Of a DNA stretch of 63,778 bases, positions 14,234 through 29,417 are shown one piece after another. The notes beneath the pieces are model-generated. The model was given only the letters and a program-made list of their open reading frames with translations, did not search any database and was not told the DNA's origin. Positions within the stretch are counted from its first letter, which is position 1; each line of letters begins with the position of its first letter. This DNA is from Lachnospiraceae bacterium (GTDB lineage: Bacteria > Bacillota > Clostridia > Lachnospirales > Lachnospiraceae). The DNA lies in the NCBI GenBank assembly GCA_017469935.1, contig JAFUFL010000014.1:1-63778 (forward strand), written 5' to 3'. A program made the position numbers and the translations under genes.

Positions 14234-15100
14234 TCACGGTTTCTTATACGCCTTGTAATAGTGATGCCCCACCCGGTCTTCCTCGGGCGGCAGCTGCATA
14301 TAATCTCCGTATGTGTGCCGGAGAATCTTGTCATAGGCCGCCGGCACGCGGAACCTGTACTGCTCAAAGGGCATATAGGTATACGCGTCAAACCACTTTC
14401 TCAGATACATATCCTTCACTCCCCAGGAGAGCCAGATCACGCAGCCCACATACTTGCTCGAATCATAAGGCCGGACGCGGGCCAGCTTCTCCAGGGAGTC
14501 CTGGAACCTCTCTTTGCCGAGCCGGCGGCACAAGAGATAGACCGGATACTTGATCATTTTTCTCAGCGGCGAGGTCGTGGTCTCCATGGCAAAATGGTCC
14601 CGGCTCGCCTGATAGCAGAGCGAGGACAGGCGGTCCCCCTTCATGCCGAACCGGATCGCCTCCCGCTGCTCGTTCCCGAGCCCGTCGTAGGGATAAATAT
14701 CGATAAAGACGCCCATTCCGAAGGGCTTTTCGTTCTCCATGCGGATCTCATAGCGGTCATCGCTGATGCGGGTGATCATGTAGGGATATTCCGGGCATGT
14801 CTCCCTGTTGAAGACCTGCAGATGGGGATACTCCCCGATATGGTCTTTCAGGTACTCCATCAGTTTGTCGTAGTCGGGACGCGGCATCATGATGTCCACG
14901 TCGTCGTCCCAAGGGATAAATCCGTGGTGCCTGACCGCGCCGATCAAAGTCCCGTAGACCAGATAATAGCGCAGGTTCCGCTCCTCGCAGATCTGTGCCA
15001 CCGTGTGCAGGATCTCCAGCGCGATCTGCTGCGTATCCCGCATGGAAAGCGGCTCCGAAGCGCCTGCCTTCTTATTTTTCATTTCCGTAAATTCCGTCAC
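14234..15100 (-). CDS. licD: LicD family phosphotransferase
   Basis: A 288-aa cytoplasmic LicD-type enzyme. These transfer phosphocholine (from CDP-choline) or related phospho-groups onto teichoic acid or capsule sugars. The nucleotidyltransferase-like signature is clear: YYLVYGTLIGAVRHHGFIPW, then DDDVDIMM with the metal-binding Asp residues. The start is the GTG at 15100 with a perfect AAAGGAGG 6 bases before it; other in-frame starts are much poorer. It is the last gene of the leftward polysaccharide operon, 13 bases after the flippase. The moiety transferred is inferred, and licA/B/C choline genes are not in the window. Confidence 0.88.
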   Translation of the reverse strand: MTEFTEMKNKKAGASEPLSMRDTQQIALEILHTVAQICEERNLRYYLVYGTLIGAVRHHGFIPWDDDVDIMMPRPDYDKLMEYLKDHIGEYPHLQVFNRETCPEYPYMITRISDDRYEIRMENEKPFGMGVFIDIYPYDGLGNEQREAIRFGMKGDRLSSLCYQASRDHFAMETTTSPLRKMIKYPVYLLCRRLGKERFQDSLEKLARVRPYDSSKYVGCVIWLSWGVKDMYLRKWFDAYTYMPFEQYRFRVPAAYDKILRHTYGDYMQLPPEEDRVGHHYYKAYKKP

Positions 15101-15113
15101 CTGAAACCTCCTT

Positions 15114-16580
15114 TTACTTCCCGCCGCGCTTTTTGACAAAGGGAAGGTTTCTCTTAATAATCGCCAGCATCTCCAATGCGAAGGCATCGCGCAGCACAAG
15201 GACCGTCACCATGTAGATGAGACCGCCTCCGACGACCTGGATCAGTAAGCCTTTCCAGGAAACAGTGATCCACCTTCTGCTCAGTATAATGGCGCCGGCC
15301 ATCACCAGAGCGGCGATCAGATCCCGCGCGGAAGCCTTGAGGATCCATCCGAGGCGCACATAGTCCCTCGAGAAATAGATGAACGCCAGCAGGATCGAGG
15401 TTTCCGCCGCGACAGAAGCCGTCACGGCGCCCATTGCGAAAAACTGCGGGATCATGAGCATGTTGAGGCCGAAATTGACGAAGGCTCCCAGAATCACGCT
15501 CATATTGTATTCCTTCTGCCTTCCCACGGGCATCAGCACCTGCTTTCCCACCGCGTTGTTGAGGCCGACGACGATGATCAGCAGACTGAAGATCTTGAGC
15601 AGCGCCGCACTCCTCTCAAAGCCGGGCCCCAGATAGAGCGGGACCAGGTAATCGGACACGGACATCATTCCCAGGCACATCGGCACCGCGACGAGCAGGA
15701 TAAAGCGGATCGTCTGCTCCAGCCGGTTCCTGAGCCGGTCGACCTGGTTGAGATTGTACAGGTTGGCCATTCTCGGCATGGTCACGATACTCAGGGACGT
15801 GACGACCGTGACCGCCATCTGCTCGATCCTCTGGGCAAACTCATAATAGCCGTTTTCGACGGACGTCTCCGTAAACCACTTGATCATCTGCTTGTCCAGC
15901 GACAGGTAGAAGGTTGTCGCGATGGTGGGAATGAAGTAGATGATGCAGGAGCGAAGATGTCTCTTCAGGTCCAGCCTGCGAAGCGGGACGCGGTCCACCA
16001 GCGACGGCGTAAAGAGCCAGATCGACGCATTTCCGAGCAAGGTGGAACCGTTCATAATGAGCGCATAGATGTAGATATCGCTCTGTTTTTTGACAAAGGC
16101 GAAGATCAGGATGATGCTCACTATTTTGATAAGGGTATTGCGCAGGACGATCTTGCGAAACTCCTCAAATCCCTGCAGGAGCCAGGCGATATCGATGGCG
16201 CTGGCGAAGATCTGCACGATCAGCACCAGATACAGGATCTTGTACTCGGGCCGCGCCACAAAGCGGATGAACAGCAGGAAGACAGCCGCAGCACCCGTCA
16301 TCAGGAGAAAGCGCAGTACGGCGAGCTCCCAGAAGATCTGCGAGACCACCTTGCGGTCATTTCTGAAGGCTGCGACCCGGAGCTGTCCGTAAGTGGCGAT
16401 TCCAAGGTTTCCGACCAGGGCAAAATAGCCCGTAATGGCGGTGGTATAGCTGAAAGCGCCGACTTCTCCCGCACCCAGGACCCTGGCTATGTAGGGCTGG
16501 ATCAGGATCGGTATGATCACCGACAGCATCTGATAGGCGAGATTATATATGTAATTTTTCTTAACGCTTGGTTTTTGCAC
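15114..16580 (-). CDS. Polysaccharide flippase (Wzx/PST family)
   Basis: A 488-aa polytopic membrane protein of the MATE/MVF-like polysaccharide transporter group. It moves undecaprenyl-linked repeat units across the membrane. It begins NYIYNLAYQMLSVIIPI and continues IARVLGAGEVGAFSYT, the standard opening of Wzx/RfbX proteins, with about 12-14 hydrophobic segments. The start is the GTG at 16580, 8 bases after the previous stop, with AAGGA overlapping that stop; the longer reading to 16775 would cover the end of the upstream gene. It is cotranscribed with glycosyltransferases and licD. Confidence 0.92.
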   Translation of the reverse strand: MQKPSVKKNYIYNLAYQMLSVIIPILIQPYIARVLGAGEVGAFSYTTAITGYFALVGNLGIATYGQLRVAAFRNDRKVVSQIFWELAVLRFLLMTGAAAVFLLFIRFVARPEYKILYLVLIVQIFASAIDIAWLLQGFEEFRKIVLRNTLIKIVSIILIFAFVKKQSDIYIYALIMNGSTLLGNASIWLFTPSLVDRVPLRRLDLKRHLRSCIIYFIPTIATTFYLSLDKQMIKWFTETSVENGYYEFAQRIEQMAVTVVTSLSIVTMPRMANLYNLNQVDRLRNRLEQTIRFILLVAVPMCLGMMSVSDYLVPLYLGPGFERSAALLKIFSLLIIVVGLNNAVGKQVLMPVGRQKEYNMSVILGAFVNFGLNMLMIPQFFAMGAVTASVAAETSILLAFIYFSRDYVRLGWILKASARDLIAALVMAGAIILSRRWITVSWKGLLIQVVGGGLIYMVTVLVLRDAFALEMLAIIKRNLPFVKKRGGK

Positions 16581-16588
16581 GAAATTCC

Positions 16589-17455
16589 TTAATTGCCGTC
16601 GCGATCCATGAGCGCCAGAAAGGCCTTCACGGACTGCAGCATACATTTTATGGTAAATATAGATTTCCTGGACTGCTTGCGATACTCGAGATCCGTGGCG
16701 ACGTCCTCGTGGTGATCCACCCGCAGCCGCGGGTCGTAGATCATCTTCTCGCCGTCTCTTCTGCACTGATAGCACAGAATCTCCGCTTCAAAGTACATAA
16801 AGGTCTCCGGATAGAAGCACTCCCGGGGATGCCTTTCCATAAAATCCCGGGAAAAGACATAGCAGGAACCATGCAGGAGCGGATCTTCCACTGCGTGATC
16901 CACATAGTTCTCGTCCCTCTTCTCCTGCGCGGGCTTTTTGTGCGCAAGGCTTAAAATCGCCCATTTCAGGGAGATCAGCGGCTGCAGCCGGTTCTTGATC
17001 TCCAGCTGCCGGCGGGTTCTCTCCAGGTCCTCCCTTGCGGGCATCTTTCTCGTCTGCGGGTTCTGGTGATACTTTTTCTTCGTGGAATAGATATCCGGTC
17101 CCATGACGGCAAAGCCATACTCTTTGTAGCTCTGCTCCATCTGACGAATGAAATCCTTCTGCCGGATCTCCATATCATTGTTCATGACGACGGTGAAATC
17201 CGGATCATATTTGCTTACCGCATAGTTATAGCCGAAATTGTTCCCTTTGGCAAACCCGAGATTCTTGTCCGTGCCGATCACATCCACCTCCGGAGCGCTC
17301 TCATAGCGCGCCTGCAGATCCGCCAGCGTCCCGTTGGGAGAGCAGTTGTCAACCACAATGATCTTTTTCTCCCCCTCAATATTGTTCAGGATCGACTCCA
17401 CGCACTGGATCGTCTCATCCAGCGCCATGTAGTGCAGTATTACAAAACATACCAT
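16589..17455 (-). CDS. Glycosyltransferase family 2
   Basis: A 288-aa GT-A enzyme without membrane helices. It has VCFVILHYMALDET at the N-terminus, VVDNCSPNGT, NLGFAKGNNFG and VVMNNDMEI (the metal-binding region), which places it with rhamnosyltransferase-like GT2 proteins (WsaF/RfbF type). It adds one sugar to the lipid-linked repeat unit. The ATG at 17455 is preceded by two tandem copies of a GGAGATATT ribosome site. The sugar specificity cannot be read from sequence alone. Confidence 0.88.
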   Translation of the reverse strand: MVCFVILHYMALDETIQCVESILNNIEGEKKIIVVDNCSPNGTLADLQARYESAPEVDVIGTDKNLGFAKGNNFGYNYAVSKYDPDFTVVMNNDMEIRQKDFIRQMEQSYKEYGFAVMGPDIYSTKKKYHQNPQTRKMPAREDLERTRRQLEIKNRLQPLISLKWAILSLAHKKPAQEKRDENYVDHAVEDPLLHGSCYVFSRDFMERHPRECFYPETFMYFEAEILCYQCRRDGEKMIYDPRLRVDHHEDVATDLEYRKQSRKSIFTIKCMLQSVKAFLALMDRDGN

Positions 17456-17458
17456 TAC

Positions 17459-17484
17459 AATATCTCCAATAAAATATCTCCAAA
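17459..17484 (-). repeat. Duplicated Shine-Dalgarno segment before the GT2 gene
   Basis: On the minus strand TTTGGAGATATT is followed by ATTGGAGATATT, 14 bases apart. Only the nearer copy has the right distance to the ATG at 17455. Confidence 0.7.
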
Positions 17485-17503
17485 TAAAGATAAATGAAGA
17501 ATA

Positions 17504-18499
17504 TTAAGAGGCGTCTTTCTCCTTCCCCGCCGCGCCTTCCAGGAGGACTTTGTAGTAGGTCCCCGGAATCTGCGTTTTTTCCGGCTCGAATTTATAAGTG
17601 AGCTTATGGAAAGGCGTCATCGCCTTCACCGCCTCCCACACCTCTTCGCTGTAGGGCTCAAAGAGCCGGAGCAGAAGGATGTGCGGCGCGGCATTGCTGC
17701 AAGGGACTACTTTGCTCCACTCCTGCGGATAGGCGTCGATCGCCATCTCAAAGAAATCGTGGAAAATAAAGTAATCCTCTACCTCGTTGTTCTTTCTCCA
17801 GTACTCGTACAAGAGCGCTCGTGTCAGGCGCAGCATGGGGTGGTTCGTGCACGCGCTGATCATCCAGTTGGAGATGCGCTGGCAGTGTCCGTCCAGACCC
17901 GGTTTGAGGTCCTGGAAAAGGAACAGATCGCAGTCGGTCATATAGGAAGGCACATTCGACGATGTGCAAAATATTGTGGAATCCAGCCAGGTCCCGCCGT
18001 AGCGGATCAGCAGCTCCAGCCGCAGCAGATCCGACATGTGCGTCTTCGAGATCACTCCGCTGTCGATCTTCTCCTGTATGAAGGGAGGAAAAGTTACATA
18101 ATCCCTGTAATTATCCTCTGTGAGAATATGGACTTTTTTGTCGGGAAAATGCTCCGTCACGGACCGCACGCACACCTTGACGACCTCGGGCGCGCTTTCG
18201 AGCCCGTCCAGCCACAGGATCCAGATATGATCCGTCCTCACGCGCTCTTTCGGCGCTTTCTGTCCTTCTCTTGTCAGATATTCCGCAATATAGGCCTTGT
18301 ATTTTTTCCGCAGCTTTCCCAGAACCTTATTATTGACGCTCAGCCTTACGATCTCGAGGGATTTCTGCGACGTTCCCATAAGCGCCGCCTGGAGCATCGC
18401 GTAGCCCAGCACATGCGCTTTGGCATACTGCCTTAAGATCTGCACGCCCCCGGCCCGTTTGAACTTGTCTTTAAGATCTTCCATTTTCAGACCTTTCAT
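17504..18499 (-). CDS. Capsular polysaccharide synthesis glycosyltransferase (Caps_synth / Gly_transf_sug type)
   Basis: A 331-aa protein with DHIWILWLDGLESAP, LTEDNYRDYV and the signature SDLLRLELLIRYGGTWLDST. That last stretch is typical of GT32-like capsular synthesis transferases; the Asp of WLD probably belongs to the DxD-like metal site. It acts in the cytoplasm on the growing repeat unit. The ATG at 18499 overlaps the upstream stop by four bases (ATGA), implying translational coupling. AAGGAAG lies 6 bases upstream. Confidence 0.83.
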   Translation of the reverse strand: MKGLKMEDLKDKFKRAGGVQILRQYAKAHVLGYAMLQAALMGTSQKSLEIVRLSVNNKVLGKLRKKYKAYIAEYLTREGQKAPKERVRTDHIWILWLDGLESAPEVVKVCVRSVTEHFPDKKVHILTEDNYRDYVTFPPFIQEKIDSGVISKTHMSDLLRLELLIRYGGTWLDSTIFCTSSNVPSYMTDCDLFLFQDLKPGLDGHCQRISNWMISACTNHPMLRLTRALLYEYWRKNNEVEDYFIFHDFFEMAIDAYPQEWSKVVPCSNAAPHILLLRLFEPYSEEVWEAVKAMTPFHKLTYKFEPEKTQIPGTYYKVLLEGAAGKEKDAS

Positions 18500-19212
18500 C
18501 TTGCTTCCTTCTCGCCGGCACTCGTGAGAACCCGGCGGATCCTTCCGAAAATGCGCGACAGCTTCCTGCGGTTCTCTTCCTCCCTGCGGACCTCCAGAAC
18601 GCGGAAATTCTCTTTATAGGCGTTGTTCAGTCTCTCATACTCACTAAGGAGCGCCGCAAGCGGCTCCTCCTCCAGCTCGTCAAATTCGCAGATATGCCTG
18701 TCCCTGGCTTTTATGGAGGAAAGGCAGTCCTCTTCGGAGATCTCGTTCAATACCACGATCCTCGCACTGCGAACGCCCCGCTCCGACGCCGTCACCATCT
18801 TGCGAAACGTCTCGTCGGAGAGCCGGAAATCCGCGCAGAATTTCACCAGTGTGTGGACCAGTCCCTCATCAAAGAGATAGAGCTTATGCGACCGGACCAT
18901 CCTGTGGTACAGAAAGGAAAAAAGGGCCGCGCTGCGGATCGTATATTCTTCATCTTTATAGATCCCGGTACTGCTTCGAAGCGTCCCTTCCTCTGCAAGG
19001 ATCTGCCGGAGCCTGCCGCGAAGCCACCGCGCGTCCGCGCTCAGATAAATCAGCGCGCGCGCTATTTTCCTCATAAGCTTCCAGGAAAACCTGTTCATGA
19101 GGCCCGCGGAGACATTGACATAGTCGACTTCTCTGCGCCCCAGTTCTTTCCCGACCAGTTCCATCAGATATGTCTTGCCGCTTCCCGGAAGTCCGATACA
19201 TTCAATAACCAT
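18496..19212 (-). CDS. P-loop kinase-like protein of the polysaccharide operon
   Basis: A 238-aa protein with Walker A GLPGSGKT at residues 7-14 and an Asp-Glu (LYLFDEGL, near 117) that may be Walker B. The remainder is basic and helical with no family signature I can name. It begins 11 bases inside the end of the polymerase gene and ends overlapping the next glycosyltransferase, so it is tightly embedded in the operon. A role in phosphorylating a sugar or alditol for repeat-unit decoration is possible, but this is inference. Confidence 0.75.
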   Translation of the reverse strand: MVIECIGLPGSGKTYLMELVGKELGRREVDYVNVSAGLMNRFSWKLMRKIARALIYLSADARWLRGRLRQILAEEGTLRSSTGIYKDEEYTIRSAALFSFLYHRMVRSHKLYLFDEGLVHTLVKFCADFRLSDETFRKMVTASERGVRSARIVVLNEISEEDCLSSIKARDRHICEFDELEEEPLAALLSEYERLNNAYKENFRVLEVRREEENRRKLSRIFGRIRRVLTSAGEKEAR

Positions 19213-20515
19213 TATGCGCCTCCGGTCCGGCTGCCGCTGCTCTTTCGGGCCCGGCTGCGCTCACCGCGAAAGGCATCATTGTGACAAGGAATGTCAGCAT
19301 GCACATCGAGTTATTTCCGGGGTAGTTGGACTGGATCGAAGAGACCAGTACATTGACCGCATAAAACAGCGTCGCCAGACGAATATAGTAATTTCCGCTT
19401 TTCCTCGCCCTTTTGTTCAGCCCGAGCAGGATTCCGAAGAGCAGCAGGACATAAGCGATCGTTCCGAACAGCCCCAGCTGCGCCAGGATCATGGGCCAGA
19501 ACGTGTCATTCAGACATTTGGGGTCCTCCGGGGACATTCCTTCCACCGCGTCAAACCCCATGTCATAGTACAGCTGCGAGTAATATTTTGCCGCGCTGCC
19601 GGAACCGAAAGTTCCAAACCCGGTCCCGAAAGGAAAATACTCCTTAAACAGCTGTATCCCGCCCTCAAGAAAGAGCAGACGCGGCGCGTGGCCCGCGTTT
19701 ACCGCGACTCCGTTGACAAAATATTTCTCGAACTGCGGGTATCCGATCACCCCCGCCGCCGCCAGGATCAGCGCGCCCCTGTAGAGCAGGCTGTGCTTTT
19801 TCTCTATGATCAGCGAGACATAGAGCGCTGCAAAGACCATGGCCAGAATGAGGGATCTCGATTTGATCACCAGAATCAGGAGCACTTCCGCCATCGCGAG
19901 CCAGATCCGGTTGCCTTTCCCCAGCTTAAGGGCACACTCCAGGAGCAGAAGCGTGATAATGAACAGCACTGTGTTGGTCACTATGCCCGGTGTTCCGAAT
20001 ATAAAGGAATAAACCCGAAGGCCGTAGCGGATCTCCGCGTGCATCCCTATGTCGGCGACCAGATTGAGCGCGCCGAAAGCAAACAGTACCGCCAGATAGG
20101 CCTTCGCCAGAAGGACAGGGAGCCTGATGGCACTGCGATAATCCACGCGGTTCACCCTGCAGAAGGCGCTGACGCCCAGAAACAGGCAGGCAAACTTGAG
20201 GTGGCTGACAATGTCGATCAGGATGGCGGCTTTAGACCCCTGGATCCCGAACCGGAAATTCCCGTACAGTCCCGCCGCGACCACGACCGCCGAAAAACAG
20301 CAGATCAGCAGGTCTTCCATCCTTATTTCCGCGCTCATTAACAGATCCAGGACAAAATAGCCCAAAAATAGCGCCGCAATCGCCTCGTCAATATAAGAAG
20401 CTTTATAAAAGAAGTTTTCGAGCAGCGTCTGAAACAGAAACACCGTCGTAATAAGGCCAAGCGCCCCCGAAGCTCCGAGCCCGGCTCCGGCCGCGCTTCG
20501 ATCTCCCGCTCTCAC
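19202..20515 (-). CDS. O-antigen polymerase/ligase-like membrane protein (Wzy)
   Basis: A 437-aa polytopic protein with roughly 11 hydrophobic segments and one large extracytoplasmic loop (about 280-345). That loop contains LFPFGTGFGTFGS-like residues and a conserved-looking Gly/Pro-rich turn, as in Wzy and WaaL proteins. It would polymerise repeat units outside the membrane. The start is the GTG at 20515 with GGGAGAG 4 bases upstream, 10 bases after the Wzz-like stop. Wzy proteins are too divergent for a substrate call. Confidence 0.82.
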   Translation of the reverse strand: MRAGDRSAAGAGLGASGALGLITTVFLFQTLLENFFYKASYIDEAIAALFLGYFVLDLLMSAEIRMEDLLICCFSAVVVAAGLYGNFRFGIQGSKAAILIDIVSHLKFACLFLGVSAFCRVNRVDYRSAIRLPVLLAKAYLAVLFAFGALNLVADIGMHAEIRYGLRVYSFIFGTPGIVTNTVLFIITLLLLECALKLGKGNRIWLAMAEVLLILVIKSRSLILAMVFAALYVSLIIEKKHSLLYRGALILAAAGVIGYPQFEKYFVNGVAVNAGHAPRLLFLEGGIQLFKEYFPFGTGFGTFGSGSAAKYYSQLYYDMGFDAVEGMSPEDPKCLNDTFWPMILAQLGLFGTIAYVLLLFGILLGLNKRARKSGNYYIRLATLFYAVNVLVSSIQSNYPGNNSMCMLTFLVTMMPFAVSAAGPERAAAAGPEAHNGY

Positions 20516-20527
20516 GAAACTCTCCCG

Positions 20528-21907
20528 TCACATGAGTACGATGGATCCGATGACATCTCTGCCGAGGAGCGCGCAGGCGTCCAGTACATCTTCCGCGCCT
20601 TTATAAGTGGACTTCTCCGCCCTCGCCACGATGACCGCCGCGTCGCAGTTCACGATCGAGTCCACGCCGTCCGGCGTCTGCTCCATGCAGGGGATGGCAT
20701 AATAAGAGGTCCTGAGCCCTGAGACGGCTCCGGATTTATTCATCTCCCCGGCAAGTTTGTCCAGGTATTCCATGGGGAGATCGCCTACCAGCGCGATCTG
20801 CGCGTCAGGGCGCACCGCCGCCCGGATTGCGGCATCCGCCACCTGCAGGCAGACGTTTCTCTGCGGATGAGTGTAATAGCCGCTGTCAATAGAGGCCGCC
20901 CATTTGTCGGGTCCCTTCAGGATCGTGAATTTCCTTCCGGGAACACACGCGATCTTCTTCATTCCGAAGTGGCGGTTGAACTCTCTGCCTGACAGGACCT
21001 TGCCGGAAGCCAGAAGGTGGACCGCGATCAGAATCATTGCCAGGACGATCCCCGCGAGCAGTCCCGCTGCGCCCAATTTGACCGCTGTCATCACGACATC
21101 TCTCTGACTGACCGCTGCCACATGCGCGCTTCCCGAAGAAGAGAGGTTGTTGCCCAGAGTCTTCTGGGAATTGATCAGCGCCATGATCTCGACGGCCCGG
21201 TTGTTTGCCCACTTATAGAGCTCCAGGTCCACTACGACTCCGGATGCCTCATTGGCGATGAGCAGATCGTGATCGCCGTACTCTCTCCGCGCCTCCTCGC
21301 GCGACGCCCTGACCTGGGTCAGGACTGCGTCCAGAATCTGCTTTGCTCCTTCGGGCGTGGGATAGATTACCGCGACGCTGATCTGCGCCGCGTCCCGTTC
21401 ACCCGCCGTTGCCGTCACAAGCTCTCCCAGAAGCTCCGGTTCTTCGCCGAGCTCCGCTGCCACCTGCGTATAGTCGATCCTGTACAGAACGGTAGAGGCG
21501 TAGAAATTCGCGATGTTCTGCGGCTTTACGGCCGCCGCCTGTGCCGCCGTTCCTCCCGGGGCCGCCGCTGTCGCCGTATTTGCATCGGCGCTCACTATGA
21601 TATCGGCCGTCGCCTTTCCTTCCTTGTGCGGATTGATCCGCCCAAGGATGGAATTTACATAGTACTCTTCCCGGTCGGTTTCCGCCACGCGCATGACGTT
21701 CAGGATCTTTCCCTTCTGCGACCCCGTCTCTTCCGCCGCGGTCTCCTGCTGCCCCTGACTGAGCTTATAGAGCTTATACCGGGAATAGCCCTTGACGCCC
21801 GCGAGCACTGCGCCGACCAGTACGCCGGCCAGAAGAAGAAGTCTCCATTTCTCCGCGATACATCGGATCAGGGCTTTTATATCTATGATTCTCTCTCTGT
21901 TTTGCAT
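20528..21907 (-). CDS. Wzz/CpsC-like chain-length protein with degenerate BY-kinase-like tail (second copy)
   Basis: A 459-aa protein with helices near residues 20-40 and 275-300 and an extracytoplasmic part between them. The cytoplasmic tail ends with CDAAVIVARAEKSTYKGA and LLGRDVIGSIVLM, very like the C-terminus of BY-kinases (CpsD). The position of Walker A reads IALVGDLPMEYLDK with no GKS/T, so the kinase is probably dead. The start is the ATG at 21907 (GGAG 8 bases upstream); the long frame to 21976 would translate a palindrome. It heads the seven-gene polysaccharide operon. Confidence 0.78.
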   Translation of the reverse strand: MQNRERIIDIKALIRCIAEKWRLLLLAGVLVGAVLAGVKGYSRYKLYKLSQGQQETAAEETGSQKGKILNVMRVAETDREEYYVNSILGRINPHKEGKATADIIVSADANTATAAAPGGTAAQAAAVKPQNIANFYASTVLYRIDYTQVAAELGEEPELLGELVTATAGERDAAQISVAVIYPTPEGAKQILDAVLTQVRASREEARREYGDHDLLIANEASGVVVDLELYKWANNRAVEIMALINSQKTLGNNLSSSGSAHVAAVSQRDVVMTAVKLGAAGLLAGIVLAMILIAVHLLASGKVLSGREFNRHFGMKKIACVPGRKFTILKGPDKWAASIDSGYYTHPQRNVCLQVADAAIRAAVRPDAQIALVGDLPMEYLDKLAGEMNKSGAVSGLRTSYYAIPCMEQTPDGVDSIVNCDAAVIVARAEKSTYKGAEDVLDACALLGRDVIGSIVLM

Positions 21908-21931
21908 CTGCACACTCCAAATTATTCCTGA

Positions 21932-21944
21932 CTCGCGCAGCGAG
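21932..21944. repeat. GGCTCGC-type palindrome, copy 2
   Basis: CTCGC-GCA-GCGAG, within GACTCGCGCAGCGAGCC read on either strand, sits 25 bases upstream of the second Wzz-like start. Copy 1 sits at the same place before the first Wzz-like gene. Confidence 0.65.
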
Positions 21945-22149
21945 CCGTTGACTGTAAACAAAACCTGATATATCATCGTAATTCTACCGTATGCTCTCTT
22001 TTAAAGCAAGAAGGCAAAACAGCAATGCTTGTTTTGGACACGGTACACCGGTAAATCCGGCGCGCGCGCGCATATGCAAAAACTTGTAGGAAAATCCGAT
22101 TTAAAATAGTATAATGACGGTAATGTAGTATGAGTAAGGAGCTGATCCT

Positions 22150-23289
22150 ATGACAAAAATACCTTTTAATATTCCTCCGTTTATCGGAACGGAGCTTAAA
22201 TATGTACAACAGGCCATCGATGCGCATAAGATCTGCGGCGACGGGCAGTTTACCCGGAAGTGCAATACCTGGATCGAGGATCGTTTCGGCGCCCCCGGCG
22301 CTCTTTTGACCACAAGCGGAACCACTGCTCTTGAGATGGCTGCGCTTCTGTGCGGACTCGAGAAGGGCGACGAGGTAATCCTTCCCAGCTTCACTTTTTC
22401 AAGTACCGCCACTTCCATCGTCCTGACCGGAGCGACGCCCGTATTTATTGATATCCGCCCGGATACCATGAACATAGATGAGAATAAGATCGAAGCCGCG
22501 ATCACAGACAGGACCAAGGCGATCATGGCCGTCCACTACGCAGGCGTTGCCTGTGAGATGGACAAGATCATGGAGATTGCTCACAGACATGACCTGAAAG
22601 TAATCGAAGACGCGGCGCAGGGCGTAATGTCAACCTACAAGGGAAAGGCCCTGGGAACGATCGGCGATTTCGGCTGCTATTCCTTCCACGAGACCAAGAA
22701 TTATTCCATGGGCGAGGGCGGCGCGCTGATCCTCAACCACAAGGAAGACATCGAACCTGCGGAGATCTTAAGAGAGAAAGGAACGAACAGAGCCCGCTTC
22801 TTCCGCGGACAGGTCGACAAATACACCTGGGTCGAGTACGGCAGCAGCTACCTTCCCAGCGACATGAACGCCGCCTATCTCTGGGCGCAGCTCCAGGAGG
22901 CAGACCGCATTAATGAAAATCGCCTGGCGACATGGAACGCTTACAATGTAGCCTTCGCGCCTCTTTCGGCACAGGGCCGGCTCGTACTTCCCACGATCCC
23001 CGAAGAGTGTGTGCACAACGCGCATATGTACTATGTAAAGCTGCGCGATCTGCGTGAGCGCACAGAGTTTATCGATTATCTTCACAGCTGCGATGTGGGA
23101 TGCGTTTTCCACTACGTCCCCCTGCACTCCTCCCCTGCCGGCAGGCGCTTCGGGCGCTTTAACGGAGAAGACGTCTATACCACGGCCGAGAGCGACCGCC
23201 TGGCAAGGCTTCCTCTCTATTTTGGCATGACGGAAGAGGACCGCAGCAAGGTGATCGAGACGGTGCTCTCATTCTTTTCGGAACACTAA
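22150..23289 (+). CDS. WecE/RffA-type dTDP-4-keto-6-deoxyhexose aminotransferase
   Basis: A 379-aa PLP enzyme of the DegT/DnrJ/EryC1 family. It opens IPFNIPPFIGTELKYV and has TTSGTTALEMAA, EDAAQG and HETKNYSMGEGGAL, whose Lys is the PLP Schiff-base residue. These are the hallmarks of the WecE (dTDP-Fuc4N-forming) branch. It would aminate the product of RmlB, encoded 3 kb away on the other strand, giving dTDP-4-amino-4,6-dideoxy-Glc or -Gal; the epimer cannot be decided. A TATAAT at 22110 and AAGGAG before the ATG are visible. It is the first gene of a five-gene rightward unit. Confidence 0.93.
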   Translation: MTKIPFNIPPFIGTELKYVQQAIDAHKICGDGQFTRKCNTWIEDRFGAPGALLTTSGTTALEMAALLCGLEKGDEVILPSFTFSSTATSIVLTGATPVFIDIRPDTMNIDENKIEAAITDRTKAIMAVHYAGVACEMDKIMEIAHRHDLKVIEDAAQGVMSTYKGKALGTIGDFGCYSFHETKNYSMGEGGALILNHKEDIEPAEILREKGTNRARFFRGQVDKYTWVEYGSSYLPSDMNAAYLWAQLQEADRINENRLATWNAYNVAFAPLSAQGRLVLPTIPEECVHNAHMYYVKLRDLRERTEFIDYLHSCDVGCVFHYVPLHSSPAGRRFGRFNGEDVYTTAESDRLARLPLYFGMTEEDRSKVIETVLSFFSEH

Positions 23290-23305
23290 ATGATAGGAGT
23301 TGTTT

Positions 23306-24304
23306 GTGAATATTGATGCAATTCATAAGAGCGGAAAGAAGCTGATCAGCTTCGTCATTCCGTGCTACCACAGCGAAGGGTCCGTAGGGCTCGTCATAGA
23401 GGAAATTCGTCAGGTCGTCTCACAACGGCCTGATTTTACTTATCAAATCATCGCAGTCAACGACTGCTCCCCCGACAATCTTCTCTCCGTGATCAAGAGA
23501 GAAGCGGAGAAGGACCCGCAGGTGATCGCCATTGACCTGGCCAAGAACGGCGGGCGCCACAACGCCCTGATCTGCGGCTGTCACTACGCGGACGGCGATT
23601 ACATCGTCTTCATCGATGACGACCAGCAGTGTCCCACCGACAGGCTCTGGGATCTCATGGACCCGCTCCTTAATTCCGACGCCGACGTCGCCATCGCCAA
23701 ATATCCGCACAAGACGCAGTCCGCCTTCAAGAATTTCGGCTCCAAAGTCAACGACACCGTTGCCACATGGCTCCTCGGCAAGGACAAAGAATTGAAATTC
23801 TCCAATTTCTCTGTCATGAAGCGCTTTGTCAAGGACGAGGTGATCAAGTACAAAAACCCGTATCCCTACCTGTCCGGACTCATGCTTCGCTCCACCAAGA
23901 ATGTTGTGAACGTGGAGATGGAGGAAAGAGAGCGCACCATAGGCGTAGGGCATTACAGTTTCCGCAAATCCTTCGCGCTCTGGATGAACAGCTTTACCGC
24001 TTTTTCCGTAAAGCCCCTGCGTTTTGCCACCAGCTGCGGCATTGTCTGCGCTTTTCTGGGCATGATCATGGTCATCTACACAGTTGTCCACAAGCTGGTC
24101 AACCCGAACGTCGCCATCGGCTACAGTTCCCTCATGTCCATGCTCCTGTTCATCGGAGGCATGATCATGTTCATGCTGGGACTCATCGGCGAATATATCG
24201 GAAGGATCTACATCTCCCTGAACAATTCGCCCCAGTTCGTCATCCGCGAGATCTACAGGCGCTCCGACGAACCTGAAGAAAAACCGCAGGAAGAGCATCC
24301 ATAA
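23306..24304 (+). CDS. ArnC-like polyprenyl-phosphate glycosyltransferase (GT2)
   Basis: A 332-aa GT2 with two C-terminal membrane helices (about 245-265 and 278-300). The catalytic part has FVIPCYHSEGS, NDCSPDN, NGGRHNALICG and FIDDDQQCP as metal site. It resembles ArnC, which loads an amino sugar onto undecaprenyl phosphate. The start is the GTG at 23306 with TAGGAG 6 bases before it; the TTG at 23300 would abut that site. It lies 16 bases after the aminotransferase, so the aminated dTDP sugar is its likely donor (inference). Confidence 0.9.
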   Translation: MNIDAIHKSGKKLISFVIPCYHSEGSVGLVIEEIRQVVSQRPDFTYQIIAVNDCSPDNLLSVIKREAEKDPQVIAIDLAKNGGRHNALICGCHYADGDYIVFIDDDQQCPTDRLWDLMDPLLNSDADVAIAKYPHKTQSAFKNFGSKVNDTVATWLLGKDKELKFSNFSVMKRFVKDEVIKYKNPYPYLSGLMLRSTKNVVNVEMEERERTIGVGHYSFRKSFALWMNSFTAFSVKPLRFATSCGIVCAFLGMIMVIYTVVHKLVNPNVAIGYSSLMSMLLFIGGMIMFMLGLIGEYIGRIYISLNNSPQFVIREIYRRSDEPEEKPQEEHP

Positions 24305-24328
24305 AGGAATCACATAATAAAGGAATCA
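24301..24328 (+). repeat. Tandemly duplicated ribosome-binding segment
   Basis: ATAAAGGAATCA occurs twice, 16 bases apart, covering the stop of the GT2 gene and the ribosome site of the ATP-grasp gene. Only the second AAGGA is well placed for the ATG at 24332. Confidence 0.75.
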
Positions 24329-24331
24329 TAC

Positions 24332-25555
24332 ATGGAAAACATTCTTATTATCGGAGCGGGAGATTTTCAGCTTCCTCTGGTTCAGAGGGCTTCCCGCTCT
24401 TACAACGTTCTGCTCGCGGCGCCGGTCATATCCGACGCCTTTAAGCCTTATATCAAGGACTCCCTGCTCATCGATGTCAGGGACAAGGAGCGCATCCTGG
24501 AATTTGCCCGCGCGCACTCCGTCTGCGGCGTGATCACGGACCAGACCGACATCGCGGTTCGCTCCGTCGCCTATGTCGCCGAGAAGATGGGCCTGCCCGG
24601 CATCGGATACGAGACCGGCTGCCTTTTCACCGACAAGAGCCTTATGAGAGAGCGCATGGCGCAGCTGGGCATCAAGCTCCTGCCTCACCGCACGGTCTCT
24701 TCCCTCGATGAGGCCCTGGCCTACTACGAGGAGATTGGCGGCAGCGTCATCATCAAGCCTCTGGATACCCAGGGGAGCCGCGGCGTGCAGGTCTGCCGCA
24801 GTGCCGATGACCTTAAGGCAAAATATGCAGAGGCCGCCCGCTGGTCCTCAAACCGCAACGTTCTCATCGAGCGCTTCGCCACCGGACGCGAATTTCTGGT
24901 GGAAGGCCTGGCCGTGGACTACGAATTCCGCAATCTGTGTATCGGGGACACGCTCTATTTTGACCTTCCCGACGCCTTTGCCGCCAAGAGCCGCATCTTC
25001 CCTACTGTCGCGGACGATGCGCTGCGGCAGCGCGTCCTGGATCTGAACACCAGGATCATCACAGGGTTCGGCCTCAAACAGGGCATCACGCACAGCGAGT
25101 TCATCATGGACGGCGACGACATCTACCTGATCGAAACAGCCGCCAGAGGAGGCGGCGTCTTCATCTCCTCCGACCTGATCCATCTCTCCTGCGGCCTCGA
25201 TACGGAAGGATTCCTTCTCGATATCGCCTCCGGAAAGCAGAAAGGTCTTCCCGAGATCCTGCCCCAGCAGTGCGTCTGCGGCTACCTGGCCTTCTATGTG
25301 CCCGACGGCAAAGTCCTGCGTGTAAGCGGTGTCAAGGAAGTGCAGGCGCTGCCTTACGTCCACCGCAACCAGCTCGACAAGCTCAAGGCCGGAACGGAGA
25401 ACAAAGAAGGACACACCGACAAGACGTCCCGCATAGCCCTGATCATAAGCGCCCCGGACCGCGTCACTTTTGCGGAGCGGGCTGCCCGGGTTCGCGAAAT
25501 GCTTCAGGTCGACACCGAGACGCCCGATGGCATTAAACCCCTTATATGGGAATGA
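24332..25555 (+). CDS. ATP-grasp ligase of the amino-sugar cassette
   Basis: A 407-aa ATP-grasp enzyme of the carboxylate-amine ligase type. An N-terminal Rossmann-like part (ILIIGAGDFQLPLVQ) is followed by the grasp motifs: IIKPLDTQGSRGV near 145, the ERF hinge near 182, HSEFIMDGDDIYLIE near 255-270 with the metal-binding Glu, and ARGGG. Such enzymes join an acyl-phosphate to an amine. Placed between an ArnC-like transferase and ArnE/F-like flippase halves, it probably acylates the sugar 4-amine with an amino acid, or makes the acyl donor (inference). The C-terminal 80 residues resemble those of dipeptide or amino-acid ligases. Confidence 0.87.
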   Translation: MENILIIGAGDFQLPLVQRASRSYNVLLAAPVISDAFKPYIKDSLLIDVRDKERILEFARAHSVCGVITDQTDIAVRSVAYVAEKMGLPGIGYETGCLFTDKSLMRERMAQLGIKLLPHRTVSSLDEALAYYEEIGGSVIIKPLDTQGSRGVQVCRSADDLKAKYAEAARWSSNRNVLIERFATGREFLVEGLAVDYEFRNLCIGDTLYFDLPDAFAAKSRIFPTVADDALRQRVLDLNTRIITGFGLKQGITHSEFIMDGDDIYLIETAARGGGVFISSDLIHLSCGLDTEGFLLDIASGKQKGLPEILPQQCVCGYLAFYVPDGKVLRVSGVKEVQALPYVHRNQLDKLKAGTENKEGHTDKTSRIALIISAPDRVTFAERAARVREMLQVDTETPDGIKPLIWE

Positions 25556-25564
25556 GGTTGCGCC

Positions 25565-25930
25565 GTGTTAAATAAATTTCTTGAGAAACGAAGTAATATC
25601 ATACTGCTGGCGATCATCGCCGTCTTCATGGAGAGCCTGACATCCCCCTGTCTCAAGCTGGGCGGGCGGTATCCTTTCCTCTCCGCCGGCTACATCGGCT
25701 GGTTCTGCCTGGCTGTGCTGATCCTTGGGTTTTACGCCGTCTGCTGGCAGCTGATCCTGGAGAAGCTCCCGCTGACCACCGCGTATCTGCGGCGGGGCTT
25801 CAGCTATATACTCATTTTCGTCTGGGCGCGTCTGATTTTCCATGAGACCATCACCTGGAAACAGATCCTGGGCATTATCGTCATTTCGATCGGAATGGTC
25901 GTCAGTATCAGCGACGAAAAAGCCAACTGA
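25565..25930 (+). CDS. Small EamA/SMR-type membrane protein (ArnE/ArnF-like), first half
   Basis: A 121-aa protein with four hydrophobic segments. It has SPCLKLGGRYPFLS early, LPLTTAYLRRGFSYI in the middle and ETITWKQILGIIVISIGMVVS at the end. This is the usual arrangement of SMR and ArnE/ArnF proteins, which flip undecaprenyl-linked amino sugars as heterodimers. The start is a GTG, 9 bases after the ATP-grasp stop, with a weak GAGG site, suggesting coupling. Confidence 0.82.
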   Translation: MLNKFLEKRSNIILLAIIAVFMESLTSPCLKLGGRYPFLSAGYIGWFCLAVLILGFYAVCWQLILEKLPLTTAYLRRGFSYILIFVWARLIFHETITWKQILGIIVISIGMVVSISDEKAN

Positions 25931-25950
25931 ACAGGTTTACGGAGGTAATA

Positions 25951-26316
25951 ATGAATTCGGAACTCTTCACACCTGCCTTTTGTTACGGAGCCGCCATAAT
26001 AGCCGCTTTCGTCACAGCCCTCAGCCAGATCATACTCAAAAAGCAGGCCAACATCACAGAGGCCAAAAAGAGCGGGTTCTTCAGTAAATTCCTGAATCCA
26101 CGCGTCATCATCTCCTATGGTCTCCTGTTTTCTACCCTGGTCATCAACCAGGTCGCCCTGATCCATGTCCCCGTATCGGTCATGCCCTGCATCACCGCGA
26201 CCAGCTTTGTCTGGGTCTTTATTATGGGCGTCCTGATCCTGAAGGAGAAAGTCTCCCCCCGCAAAGCGCTGGGAGTCGCCATCATCATTTTGGGCGTCAT
26301 TATCTCAAGGCTGTAA
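25951..26316 (+). CDS. Small EamA/SMR-type membrane protein (ArnE/ArnF-like), second half
   Basis: A second 121-aa four-helix protein with ALSQIILKKQANITE near residue 25, VSVMPCITATSFVWVF and EKVSPRKALGVAIIILGVIISRL. It differs clearly from its neighbour, as expected for a dual-gene antiparallel SMR pair. Its gene follows by 20 bases with GGAGG upstream. It is the last gene of the cassette, before a shared terminator. The proposed role is one half of a flippase for the lipid-linked sugar. Confidence 0.82.
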   Translation: MNSELFTPAFCYGAAIIAAFVTALSQIILKKQANITEAKKSGFFSKFLNPRVIISYGLLFSTLVINQVALIHVPVSVMPCITATSFVWVFIMGVLILKEKVSPRKALGVAIIILGVIISRL

Positions 26317-26359
26317 TTTCGGCCGCTCTGCGGCCTTAAACAAACAAATCGTGTATCTT

Positions 26360-26406
26360 AAAAGACTCCTCAGGAACCCGGCAAACCGGTCCTGCGGAGT
26401 CTTTTT
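26360..26406. terminator. Bidirectional hairpin terminator
   Basis: Arms aaaagactcc (26360-26369) and ggagtcttttt (26396-26406) enclose an inner ccgg/ccgg stem. It closes the amino-sugar cassette (+) and rmlB (-). Confidence 0.9.
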
Positions 26407-26418
26407 CAGGGTTATCTG

Positions 26419-27438
26419 TTATCTGTTCCCGTACATCTTCTCATAATAATTCCGATACTCCCCGGAGCGAATCGTCTCCCACCACTCCTGGTTGTCGAGA
26501 TACCAGCGGATCGTCTTTTTGATGCCGTCCGCGAACATTGTCTCCGGAAGCCACCCCAGCTCGGCGTGAATCTTGGCCGGATCAATCGCGTAGCGCTGGT
26601 CATGCCCTTTACGGTCCGTCACATAAGTGATCAGGCTCTCCGGCTTTCCGAGCTCCGCGCAGATCAGTTTGACGATGTCTATATTTCTCATCTCGTTGTG
26701 CCCGCCGATATTGTAGACCTCTCCGACGCGTCCCCCGCGCAGGATCAGGTCGATCGCTTTGCAGTGATCCTCCACATAGAGCCAATCCCTGACGTTGAGT
26801 CCCTCGCCGTAAACCGGCAGAGGCTGGTCGTGCAGCGCATTGGCGATCATCAGAGGGATCAGCTTTTCCGGGAACTGGTAAGGTCCGTAGTTGTTTGAGC
26901 AGCGGCTGATCGTCACGGGCAGTCCGTATGTCCTGTGATAGGCCAGCACGAGAAGATCCGCCGAGGCTTTCGACGTGCTGTAAGGGCTGCTGGTGTGGAT
27001 GGGAGTCTCCTCCGTGAAGAAGAGGTCCGGTCTGTCCAGCGGCAGATCGCCGTATACCTCATCCGTAGACACCTGATGGAATCTGACGATTCCGAGCTTT
27101 CTGCAGGCGTCCATGAGCACGGCCGTTCCCATGATGTTGGTCTCCAGGAAGATCCCCGGGTTCTCGATGGAGCGGTCGACGTGCGACTCAGCGGCAAAAT
27201 TCACAACGATTTCCGGCTTCTCCTCTTCAAAGAGGCGGTCGATCCCTTCGCGGTCACGGATATCCAGCTTCACAAATCGGAAGTTCGGGTTGTCCATAAC
27301 CGACTCCAGGGTGGACAGATTGCCCGCATAGGTGAGGCTGTCCACACAGATGATCCGGTCCTCCGGATGCTTATCCAGCATGTAAAAAACAAAATTCGAT
27401 CCGATAAAACCGGCTCCGCCGGTCACGATAATATTCAT
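26419..27438 (-). CDS. rfbB: dTDP-glucose 4,6-dehydratase
   Basis: A 339-aa SDR enzyme that converts dTDP-glucose to dTDP-4-keto-6-deoxyglucose. It has the NAD-binding GGAGFIGSNF at residues 7-16, AAESHVDRS, VSTDEVYGDL and the catalytic YSTSK. The ATG at 27438 has AGGAG 8 bases upstream; the frame extends to 27528 without a better start. It is convergent with the cassette at 22.1-26.3 kb and supplies the substrate for its aminotransferase. RmlA, C and D are not in the window, which fits use for an amino sugar or complementation by genes elsewhere. Confidence 0.96.
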   Translation of the reverse strand: MNIIVTGGAGFIGSNFVFYMLDKHPEDRIICVDSLTYAGNLSTLESVMDNPNFRFVKLDIRDREGIDRLFEEEKPEIVVNFAAESHVDRSIENPGIFLETNIMGTAVLMDACRKLGIVRFHQVSTDEVYGDLPLDRPDLFFTEETPIHTSSPYSTSKASADLLVLAYHRTYGLPVTISRCSNNYGPYQFPEKLIPLMIANALHDQPLPVYGEGLNVRDWLYVEDHCKAIDLILRGGRVGEVYNIGGHNEMRNIDIVKLICAELGKPESLITYVTDRKGHDQRYAIDPAKIHAELGWLPETMFADGIKKTIRWYLDNQEWWETIRSGEYRNYYEKMYGNR

Positions 27439-27496
27439 AGTGCGTTCTCCTGTAACACAGTGTGTCTGAATAGTAAGCCTGAATGATAAGCAACAA

Positions 27497-27525
27497 GATA
27501 TCCGGCACAAACTGTGCCGGATATC
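27497..27525. terminator. Perfect hairpin, likely terminator of the L,D-transpeptidase gene
   Basis: Twelve-base perfect arms (gatatccggcac and gtgccggatatc) with a 5-base loop lie between the stop at 27561 and rfbB. On the minus strand it is followed by only a loose T-rich run (TTGTTGCTT), so its strength is uncertain. Confidence 0.6.
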
Positions 27526-27560
27526 CAATCTTCACATCTTACTCTGTGAGTATTCTGTTA

Positions 27561-29417
27561 TCAGTAAACAACAACCTTGGTTCCAAGCGGAACGTTATCC
27601 CAAATCCATTCCGCGTTCTGCGTCTCAAGTCTGACGCAGCCGTGAGAATAATCCTTCTTCAGAGCGGGATCCATAGGCTCTTCGCTATAAGGATTTGTAT
27701 TGGGATAATACTCTCCGATGTATTTCTCATACAGGATGGAGTGGAAGTAGTTACCCGCTGAAATATGTGTCGCAAATGCAGCACTGGAGTAATCAAATAC
27801 CGCCCAGCCGTACTTGGCGCTTCTCTTTGTCACATGATCATCGAGTCTCCATGTGCCGTTAGGTGTATTGCTTCCGCCGTGTGTGCAGTACCACTCCTTG
27901 ACCTTAGCCCAGCCGTTCTTTCTTCCCTTGTAAATGCAGACCTTGTACTCGCCCTTATTGACAAGGATCAGATAATTCGTATCACTGGAATATCCCTGTG
28001 CCTTTCTGTCCATGGCAGTCATCTTGGATCTGCCCATGCTGTCGAGCTTAACTCCTTCAATGGTCGTATTGCGTGCGCATGTACCATTTGCATATGTGTA
28101 ATAGGTATAAGCGCCTACGGTCTTCCAGCCCTTTGTGGTCGCTCTGCGTCCTTCAGAATCAAAGAACATGAGCTTTCCGCTCTCCATCAGAACCGACCCG
28201 GTAGCCATCTTGCCGCCCTGGGCAGGATTCAGATAGTAAAGGCTGTTACCGAGCTTAATCCATCCATATCTTGCCAGACCGTTCTCATAAGTATAATACC
28301 AGGAGCTGCCCTTCGCGTGCCATCCTTTCGCAGCGGCTCCGTTACTTGTATTATAGTATGCCACTCTGCCGTTATAGGTTGTCCAGCCCTTAATCTGCGC
28401 CGCATTGGAACCAAACAGGAAGTACTTATTACCGATCTTTACAAGTCCCTTTACAGGTGTTCCTCTTGTCTGACTCGGATATCTGGAATCGGCAAAGAAG
28501 AACGTCTTGCCCTTGATGGTCTTCCATCCGGAAAGCATGGATCCTTCGTGCTGTGCCGTATAATTCGAATCCGCAAAGTAGTACAGTTTGCCCGAAATTG
28601 TCTTCCAGCCTTCATAGGCTGCGCCTGTGGGCCAGCTTCCGCTGCCGGTTGCGAAGTAATAGGTCTTGTTGTTAATATACTGCCATCCGGTCAACTGCTT
28701 GCCTCTGGGCACGTTATGTGCCTTGGCATAGGAAGAATCAGCCATATAGAACCAATAATTGCCGATCTTCCTGAAACCGGTAAGCATTGCGCCGGCAGGA
28801 AGTGAGGGCCATCTGCTGTCTGCAAAATAGCAAACCGTCCCCTTGTTGTCGATGGTTACCCAGCCGGTCTTCTTAACTCCGTTTTTGTCAAAGAAGAAGG
28901 TGCGTGCTGTTCCGTTAAAAGTAAGAACCTGCAATCCGGTGACCTTCTTGCCGTTTTTGTAATACACGGTATTGTTCTGCTGCCAGCCGTCAGCGATCTT
29001 CTCGGTCTTCTTCTCCTCTACGACGGTGTTAGGATCAACTTTCACCGCAACAGGTTCCACTACCGGCGCTGCTTCCGCGCTTGTTGTGGCCGCTGCCGCT
29101 GCTTCCTCTTCGGGTGCGGCTTCCGTCTCTTCCGTCTCTTCCACAACTTCCTTTTCCTCTGTGGTTTCAACTTCTACTGCCGCTGTTTCCTCGGATGAAG
29201 CCGCTTCGCCGGAGGCTTCTTCGACAACTGCTGCCGCCTCGCTGCTTCCCGCAGCGGCAGCTTCTTCGTTCTCTGTGACTGTCTCAGTCTCTGCCTGCTC
29301 TAAAGTCTGCTCAACTGCTGCAGGTGTTTCTGTTTCAGCTGCACCGGCTCCGGCGACAGGAAAAGAAGCGAACGTGAGAGATAAAGCCAAAAGAAGAGCT
29401 AGTCTACGTTTCATCAT
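27561..29417 (-). CDS. Cell-wall-binding L,D-transpeptidase (YkuD)
   Basis: A 618-aa exported protein with a signal peptide (1-27), a Glu/Ala/Val-rich linker (28-135), about 15 CW_binding-type repeats (140-480, for example GWKTISGKLYYFADS) and a C-terminal YkuD domain (485-618). The catalytic motif SHGCVRL lies near residue 590, preceded by a conserved His (THISAGNYFHS). Such enzymes form 3-3 crosslinks or attach proteins to peptidoglycan. GGAGGAG lies before the ATG. The gene is monocistronic. It is less GC-rich than the polysaccharide genes and its repeats are near-identical, so recombination between repeats is likely. Confidence 0.93.
   Translation of the reverse strand: MMKRRLALLLALSLTFASFPVAGAGAAETETPAAVEQTLEQAETETVTENEEAAAAGSSEAAAVVEEASGEAASSEETAAVEVETTEEKEVVEETEETEAAPEEEAAAAATTSAEAAPVVEPVAVKVDPNTVVEEKKTEKIADGWQQNNTVYYKNGKKVTGLQVLTFNGTARTFFFDKNGVKKTGWVTIDNKGTVCYFADSRWPSLPAGAMLTGFRKIGNYWFYMADSSYAKAHNVPRGKQLTGWQYINNKTYYFATGSGSWPTGAAYEGWKTISGKLYYFADSNYTAQHEGSMLSGWKTIKGKTFFFADSRYPSQTRGTPVKGLVKIGNKYFLFGSNAAQIKGWTTYNGRVAYYNTSNGAAAKGWHAKGSSWYYTYENGLARYGWIKLGNSLYYLNPAQGGKMATGSVLMESGKLMFFDSEGRRATTKGWKTVGAYTYYTYANGTCARNTTIEGVKLDSMGRSKMTAMDRKAQGYSSDTNYLILVNKGEYKVCIYKGRKNGWAKVKEWYCTHGGSNTPNGTWRLDDHVTKRSAKYGWAVFDYSSAAFATHISAGNYFHSILYEKYIGEYYPNTNPYSEEPMDPALKKDYSHGCVRLETQNAEWIWDNVPLGTKVVVY

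Follow-up and report, generated by a model that had tools for sequence, protein, structure and literature searches.

In the enterobacterial common antigen (ECA) pathway, dTDP-4-amino-4,6-dideoxy-D-galactose (dTDP-Fuc4N) is reported to be acetylated by WecD, an enzyme of the GNAT family (PMC7439462). Amino-acyl groups are known on the 4-amino-4,6-dideoxyglucose of Gram-negative O-antigens (PMC3210612), and the Fuc3N of Clostridioides difficile type B flagellin is described as bearing a glycine amide (PMC5207245). In C. difficile an ATP-grasp gene adjoins a gene cluster with an FdtB-like aminotransferase, and the ATP-grasp mutant, like mutants in the glycosyltransferase and ornithine-cyclodeaminase-like genes, stops at a trisaccharide without the whole peptidylamido-sugar, the authors of that account leaving the exact enzyme roles open (PMC5207246). 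Because this mutant also lacks Fuc3N, ligation by the ATP-grasp enzyme is not proven there. Here we describe a five-gene unit facing rmlB in a Lachnospiraceae genome (assembly GCA_017469935.1, completeness 98.55%), on a stretch of 63,778 nucleotides (contig JAFUFL010000014.1, the window in what follows), and we consider it fairly probable that this unit makes and exports N-aminoacylated Fuc4N. Given the glycine amide of C. difficile and the O-antigen amino-acyl groups, the proposed chemistry has known relatives.

The unit is real and conserved. Its forward-strand genes encode a WecE aminotransferase (22150..23289), a family GT2 glycosyltransferase with a TTG start (23300..24304), an ATP-grasp ligase (24332..25555), and two four-helix proteins of the small multidrug resistance (SMR)/EamA type (25565..25930, with a GTG start, and 25951..26316), and rmlB, for the dTDP-glucose 4,6-dehydratase, converges on them from the reverse strand (26419..27438, ATG at 27438), in agreement with the first-pass annotation of this DNA. 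Gaps of 10, 27, 9, and 20 nt between the five genes make an operon likely. In the pathway we propose, RmlA, encoded elsewhere, and RmlB would produce dTDP-4-keto-6-deoxyglucose, which WecE, on strong family grounds, would convert to dTDP-Fuc4N. The ATP-grasp enzyme would then activate an amino acid at its carboxylate, as the acyl phosphate, and couple it to the 4-amine, thereby replacing the WecD/PseH-type acetyltransferases of related loci, as its fold, residues, and exchange with those genes suggest. By homology to GtrB and ArnC, the GT2 would move the sugar to undecaprenyl phosphate (Und-P), the two four-helix proteins would flip it as an antiparallel heterodimer, and a GT-C transferase, GtrII in relatives and perhaps a YfhO protein in this species, would add it to a surface glycan, this last step being the weakest of the series. 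What the computation shows is the gene families, the linkage, the gene exchange, the charge bias, and the GT-C genes of relatives; the substrates, the order of steps, and the acceptor we infer.

For the sugar, the family evidence is strong. The aminotransferase matches the WecE family TIGR02379 over its full length (615.4 bits against a cut-off of 434.85, residues 4-377) and the dehydratase matches the RmlB family TIGR01181 (494.5 bits, cut-off 365.1), so that the earlier assignment of both enzymes stands on curated cut-offs, and with it the expectation of a dTDP-4-amino-4,6-dideoxyhexose. The best solved chains for the aminotransferase, 4piw/4zah (542 bits) and 6blg (531 bits), are both WecE-type, whereas other sugar aminotransferases among the matches listed score at most 173 bits (perosamine synthetase 173, QdtB 156), which would make dTDP-Fuc4N the likely product rather than dTDP-Qui4N. 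An RmlA relative lies on another contig of the genome (C108, 58% to the RmlA of locus L067). Genes for dTDP-Fuc4N have also been reported in a capsule cluster of Clostridium butyricum (PMC12342839).

The third gene product exceeds the Pfam cut-offs for CPSase_L_D2 (39.8 bits) and ATP-grasp_4 (35.6 bits) and has the overall fold of the L-amino acid ligases, which are its closest relatives of known function in both fold and sequence; its first-pass description as an ATP-grasp ligase was thus correct. Three residues, E256 (35/35), E268 (34/35), and R272 (35/35), pair in the alignment with Glu311, Glu324, and Arg328 of BacD, which we take to be metal and substrate-binding residues. We propose that this ligase of the L-amino acid ligase fold acts on the 4-amine of Fuc4N.

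The company that wecE keeps in other genomes bears on this proposal. Among 200 genomes of the family, 51 contain ATP-grasp relatives (E<=1e-20) and 66 contain WecE relatives, and we examined 66 wecE places from 65 of the latter, the window included, for genes within 8 kb. The omitted genome, G001, has its matches on short contigs, one of which (L024) shows wecE, ATP-grasp, the flippase pair, and rmlB together. Gene labels come from our own hidden Markov models, built from some of the counted loci, with score thresholds chosen by eye where gaps appeared, and the ATP-grasp label is broad, including members down to 20% identity. An ATP-grasp gene is present at 27 places, a GNAT of about 180 residues at 16, both at 1, and neither at 24 (Fisher p 0.0011, in a test that ignores the relatedness of the places); excluding the 13 places less than 5 kb from a contig edge leaves 53 places and p 0.008. 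At L179, the one place that combines the two, the ATP-grasp is such a member of 20% identity. Where an ArnC-like GT2 is also present (35 places), the two never occur together, the ATP-grasp being found at 15, the GNAT at 14, and neither of them at 6. The two GNATs tested have PseH, an N-acetyltransferase of 4-amino sugars, as their nearest family, yet score under its cut-off, and no PseH-like GNAT label occurs within 8 kb of the wecE of the window, the rest of that genome not having been searched. Taking this mutual exclusion together with the acetylation of dTDP-Fuc4N by WecD, we read the ATP-grasp enzyme, most simply, as one that would acylate the same amine as the GNATs.

The GT2 is expected to be a GtrB/ArnC-like Und-P sugar transferase. 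It scores 87.1 bits against PF00535, above the cut-off, and aligns over about residues 14-325 with the solved structures of sll0501 (5ekp; residues 16-322) and ArnC (9hwj, 9bhc, 8vxh), which places it with the GT-A enzymes of the GtrB/CsbB type. The ArnC-like label given to it earlier holds in this sense, although the protein is far under the equivalog cut-offs for ArnC (117.5 against 529 bits) and PgfS (132.5 against 500). If the sugar is loaded onto Und-P, the ligase could act after this step, on Und-P-Fuc4N instead of dTDP-Fuc4N, and the Arn pathway likewise modifies its lipid-linked sugar after loading, through deformylation by ArnD. We regard this order as unlikely. The ArnC-like GT2 is missing within 8 kb at 12 of the 27 wecE places with ATP-grasp (by threshold, with some places cut by contig ends), so the WecE/ATP-grasp pair seems to work without lipid loading, and WecD acts on the nucleotide sugar (PMC7439462). 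The GT2 is equally common near wecE with ATP-grasp (15/27) and without it (20/39, p 0.80).

The two small proteins match EamA at or near its cut-off of 28.2 bits (29.0 for the first, which passes, and 27.4 for the second, just under), and neither passes as ArnF (37.9 bits for the first, cut-off 99) or ArnE (38.6 for the second, cut-off 92), for which "ArnE/ArnF-like", as they had been called, is the right term. Lysine and arginine are in excess on the N-terminal side of the first subunit (N-in) in 78 of 79 aligned sequences (mean +3.8), and the reverse bias (N-out) is found for the second in 74 of 75 (mean -4.9), counts that include the window and duplicates, since same-genus genomes recur (for example L143 and L216). 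Paired antiparallel SMR proteins are described as having charge distributions centred at +4 and -4, and ArnE and ArnF as acting as a glycolipid flippase (PMC9574504). Family membership and opposite charge bias lead us to infer an antiparallel heterodimer that flips the lipid-linked sugar. The pair is more common at wecE places with ATP-grasp (13/27) than without (7/39, p 0.014). A glutamate in the first transmembrane helix of subunit 1, E23, which by eye we take to lie at the place of the EmrE glutamate, is present in 40 of the 70 relatives that have an ATP-grasp nearby and in 0 of the 8 that do not, but we dropped it as evidence because many of these glutamates come from the genus of the window, with the same genomes counted twice. 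No GtrA was found among six proteins tested by Pfam, and the GtrA-type flippases encoded elsewhere in the genome were set aside, being located on other contigs (C93, C101, and C11).

None of the 16 window proteins tested by Pfam belongs to a GT-C family, in keeping with the earlier remark that the outer-face transferase lay outside the window. That annotation had recommended looking for a distant partner; in relatives GT-C genes lie beside the module, and in the genome itself the candidates are uncertain. Close relatives of a protein with a GtrII domain (PF14264, 55.2 bits against a cut-off of 30 in the copy tested) lie past the flippase pair, at a distance of 10-236 nt, in eight genomes, namely six of 18 same-genus loci, cultured Sarcina sp. 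DSM 11001 (L160, the same locus as L238, the copy tested) with its full set among them, and two named metagenome-assembled genomes (MAGs; L229 and L230). In a further same-genus genome, G246 (L151, also L223), GtrII is 979 nt away, and it was not found at the remaining 11 loci of the genus, contig ends truncating some of these. YfhO-family GT-C genes occur near the module in three loci, L067, L065, and L163, the first two tested by Pfam, and L067 combines YfhO with rmlA, rmlB, wecE, GT2, ATP-grasp, and both flippase genes. The genome of the window has four YfhO genes, all outside the window, three of which were searched in 51 same-genus genomes. One of them (C98:8738) has relatives of at least 59% identity in exactly the 11 genomes, its own included, whose ATP-grasp is at least 82% identical, and of at most 38% in the other 40. 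Because the YfhO of contig C24 also has near full-length matches of at least 69% in just those 11, these genomes look like one clade, and we rejected the co-distribution as evidence for a partner, shared descent explaining it equally. The C98 protein is perhaps the outer-face transferase of this species. A recurrent membrane protein of about 580 residues, c12, considered as a possible GT-C, is commonest near GNAT loci (12/16); no Pfam family exceeded its cut-off in the copies tested, and its structural model is poor (pLDDT 50.8).

The acceptor cannot be read from sequence, and the flipped sugar might decorate a protein, such as flagellin or an S-layer, or a lipid, in place of a wall polysaccharide; in C. 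difficile it is flagellin that carries the precedent glycan. We think this improbable, since the unit lies divergently to a polysaccharide cluster with Wzx, Caps_synth, and LicD, and GtrII acts on O-antigen. Teichoic acids are the target of YfhO in the systems covered by a review (PMC8035078). The divergent cluster (14237-21976, reverse strand) encodes LicD, a Wzx-type flippase, a GT2, a Caps_synth transferase, and two further membrane proteins that match no Pfam family and, judged by eye, resemble a Wzy/ligase and a chain-length protein, and its polymer is a possible acceptor. Choline-binding repeats are present on a GDPD-domain protein and a YkuD L,D-transpeptidase (5991-9047 and 27564-29417, both reverse strand), which, taken together with LicD, hints at phosphocholine on the envelope.

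What the ligase joins to the amine is a separate question, and an otherwise identical pathway in which it attaches a carboxylic acid other than an amino acid, a hydroxy acid for example, seems to us rather unlikely. The N-acyl groups reported on 4-amino-4,6-dideoxyglucose are diverse and include hydroxy acids (PMC3210612), and a scan of named genomes, in which 80 of 129 confirmed loci were kept and same-genus duplicates remain, finds a PaaK-like enzyme, of an acid-activating, adenylate-forming kind, near ATP-grasp in 10 of 80. Yet the kinship with L-amino acid ligases in fold and sequence, the tandem ATP-grasp genes in 9 of 80 named loci, and an amino-acid-type PLP enzyme beside the GT2 in L041 and L037 suit amino acids or peptides better. 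The tandem genes are less than 300 nt apart (L232, L248, L250, L251, L267, L268, L271, L272, and L275), as if for building dipeptides. The PaaK-like genes (L223:11279-12667, L232, L233, L241, L242, L247, and four others) are 14-74 nt distant in six loci; in the two copies tested, Pfam gave nothing at 1e-3 and the NCBIfam PaaK models matched weakly, and such a neighbor occurs at 3 of 27 wecE places with ATP-grasp and 0 of 39 without (p 0.06), a lead only. The PLP enzyme adjoins GT2 or flippase genes in L041 (11667-12659, reverse strand), L037, and L194, comes closest in L041 to the D-cysteate sulfo-lyase and ACC-deaminase families without reaching any of their cut-offs, and may supply an unusual amino acid. 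Two more ATP-grasp genes exist in the genome of the window, one (28%; G000:C20:17659-18561, locus L054) beside another DegT-like aminotransferase gene and one (22%) nearby, at a locus other than that of the unit. In Mogibacterium kristiansenii (L241) a 55% identical ATP-grasp sits between a YkuD L,D-transpeptidase gene and the PaaK-like gene, and nothing in the 21 kb locus is labelled as WecE, GT2, or flippase.

The set is not a chance assembly, because it recurs in the genus and beyond. An ATP-grasp match is present in 29 of 51 genomes of the genus, at 64% identity or more in 22, and loci were fetched for 18 of these (the genome of the window, G208, G221, and G224 were left out). All five genes are found at 16 of the 18; at one exception, G243, the contig ends just past the ATP-grasp. 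Absence of the ATP-grasp gene from relatives carrying the other four had been named beforehand as a refuting observation, and within the genus this test did not refute the proposal. The proposed conservation of gene order together with rmlB survives in part, rmlB being adjacent at 6 of the 18. Across the family, all five lie within 8 kb at 8 of 66 wecE places, the window being one of these, and at 6 of 40 ATP-grasp-centred loci, 13 of which have WecE. In the named scan, strict thresholds give all five within 8 kb of the ATP-grasp in 25 of 80 loci, all Clostridia, and lowered ones (GT2 170, flippase 75) give 35, the ten extra all from Bacteroidota (of 22 Bacteroidota loci) and with changed gene order. 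Two GT2s of the latter score 201 and 189 bits to PgfS and 177 and 183 to ArnC and are thus GtrB/ArnC/PgfS-like, the one compared with solved structures being nearest to GtrB; judged by these two, the Bacteroidota GT2 is of the same kind as that of the window, in another subgroup, and by homology a related set is present in another phylum, in Bacteroidales. The Gram-positive host proposed from sequence is confirmed, the closest named ATP-grasp (98%) belonging to Lachnospiraceae MAG UBA4260.

Several results weigh against an aminoacyl-Fuc4N export unit. The fold does not fix the substrate of the ATP-grasp enzyme, whose LAL_C2 match (PF18603) is below cut-off (23.3 against 29.4 bits); 24 of 66 wecE places have neither enzyme, and the test of the exchange takes no account of relatedness. 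G235 (L149), of the same genus, has no flippase pair at the locus, and no Bacteroidota locus is complete at strict thresholds. No GtrII was found in the genome of the window by sister-protein search or PF14264, a weak negative given that PF14264 matched one of 14 control genomes, under cut-off, and YfhO is not enriched near wecE with ATP-grasp (5/27 against 5/39, p 0.73). Finally, 27 of the 40 ATP-grasp-centred loci lack WecE within 8 kb, which, with the abundance of ATP-grasp relatives in the family, would suit an enzyme acting on another substrate of the neighboring polysaccharide (uronic acid amidation, for example) while plain or otherwise acylated Fuc4N is exported, but we find this quite doubtful in view of the mutual exclusion with the PseH-like N-acetyltransferase, the same-operon position in the genus, and the linkage of WecE, ATP-grasp, and flippase pair in ten Bacteroidota loci despite changed gene order. 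The function first proposed is partly supported: it keeps its sugar, GT2, SMR pair, ligase fold, and genus linkage, with a looser set beyond the genus. That looser set, the missing GT2s, the often non-adjacent rmlB, and G235 make WecE and the ligase look like the core, which would sometimes be used without the lipid route.

Between the unit and rmlB, a strong inverted repeat with an A run and a T run, read by eye (26360..26406, on neither strand in particular), is probably a bidirectional terminator. It is absent from the list of a pattern scan of 21900-27600, which found 6 promoter-like patterns against 3.8 expected and 11 terminator-like against 4.9.

A broader picture, which we put forward tentatively as a reasonable possibility, is a modular system of Clostridia and Bacteroidales for tagging surface glycans, in which exchangeable ATP-grasps would put various amino acids on the 4-amine of Fuc4N (tandem copies building peptides, PaaK-like enzymes adding further caps), other strains would acetylate it, and the SMR pair would export it to GtrII or YfhO. 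Should the aminoacylation of Fuc4N prove correct, surface sugars of Lachnospiraceae and Bacteroidales would carry amino acids, delivered by a lipid-carrier route of which we found no description. A family of ATP-grasp genes that is common in the glycan loci of Lachnospiraceae would then acquire a function, the paired SMR genes of such loci could be explained as flippases for glycolipids, and genome sequence would predict whether a strain acetylates this sugar or aminoacylates it.

Among the literature matches listed, none describes this gene set, as the first-pass annotation had supposed, nor the combination of aminoacylated sugar, Und-P loading, SMR pair, and GT-C. The L-amino acid ligases (BacD/YwfE, RizA, BL00235) share the fold and the ATP-grasp active-site residues, at about 20% identity, but their acceptor is a second amino acid, where a sugar amine is expected here. 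The C. difficile peptidylamido-glycan genes (CDR20291_0244-0247) likewise place a DegT-family aminotransferase beside an ATP-grasp and differ in the sugar (Fuc3N, from an FdtB-like enzyme), in FemAB-like and ornithine-cyclodeaminase-like genes, and in the flagellin acceptor. With three-component glycosylation of the CsbB/GtcA/YfhO type in Gram-positive polymers, the locus has in common a GT-A expected to work on Und-P, a flippase, and, in relatives, an outer GT-C (YfhO or GtrII), but its flippase is an SMR pair rather than a GtrA-type protein and its dedicated amino sugar is made in the same operon. The Arn system (ArnC, ArnE, ArnF, ArnT) resembles it in the 4-amino sugar, the ArnC-like GT2, and the paired SMR flippase; the sugar expected here, however, is Fuc4N and not L-Ara4N, no ArnA, ArnD, or ArnT is in the unit, the host is a member of the Lachnospiraceae, and all three proteins fall far below the Arn equivalog cut-offs given above. 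Finally, the dTDP-Fuc4NAc branch of ECA synthesis (RmlA, RmlB, WecE, WecD) shares RmlB and WecE and the expected 4-N-acylation of dTDP-Fuc4N, but here an ATP-grasp stands in place of a WecD-type GNAT, and the sugar would travel on a lipid monophosphate through the GtrB/ArnC-like GT2 and the SMR pair, where ECA uses WecF and Wzx.

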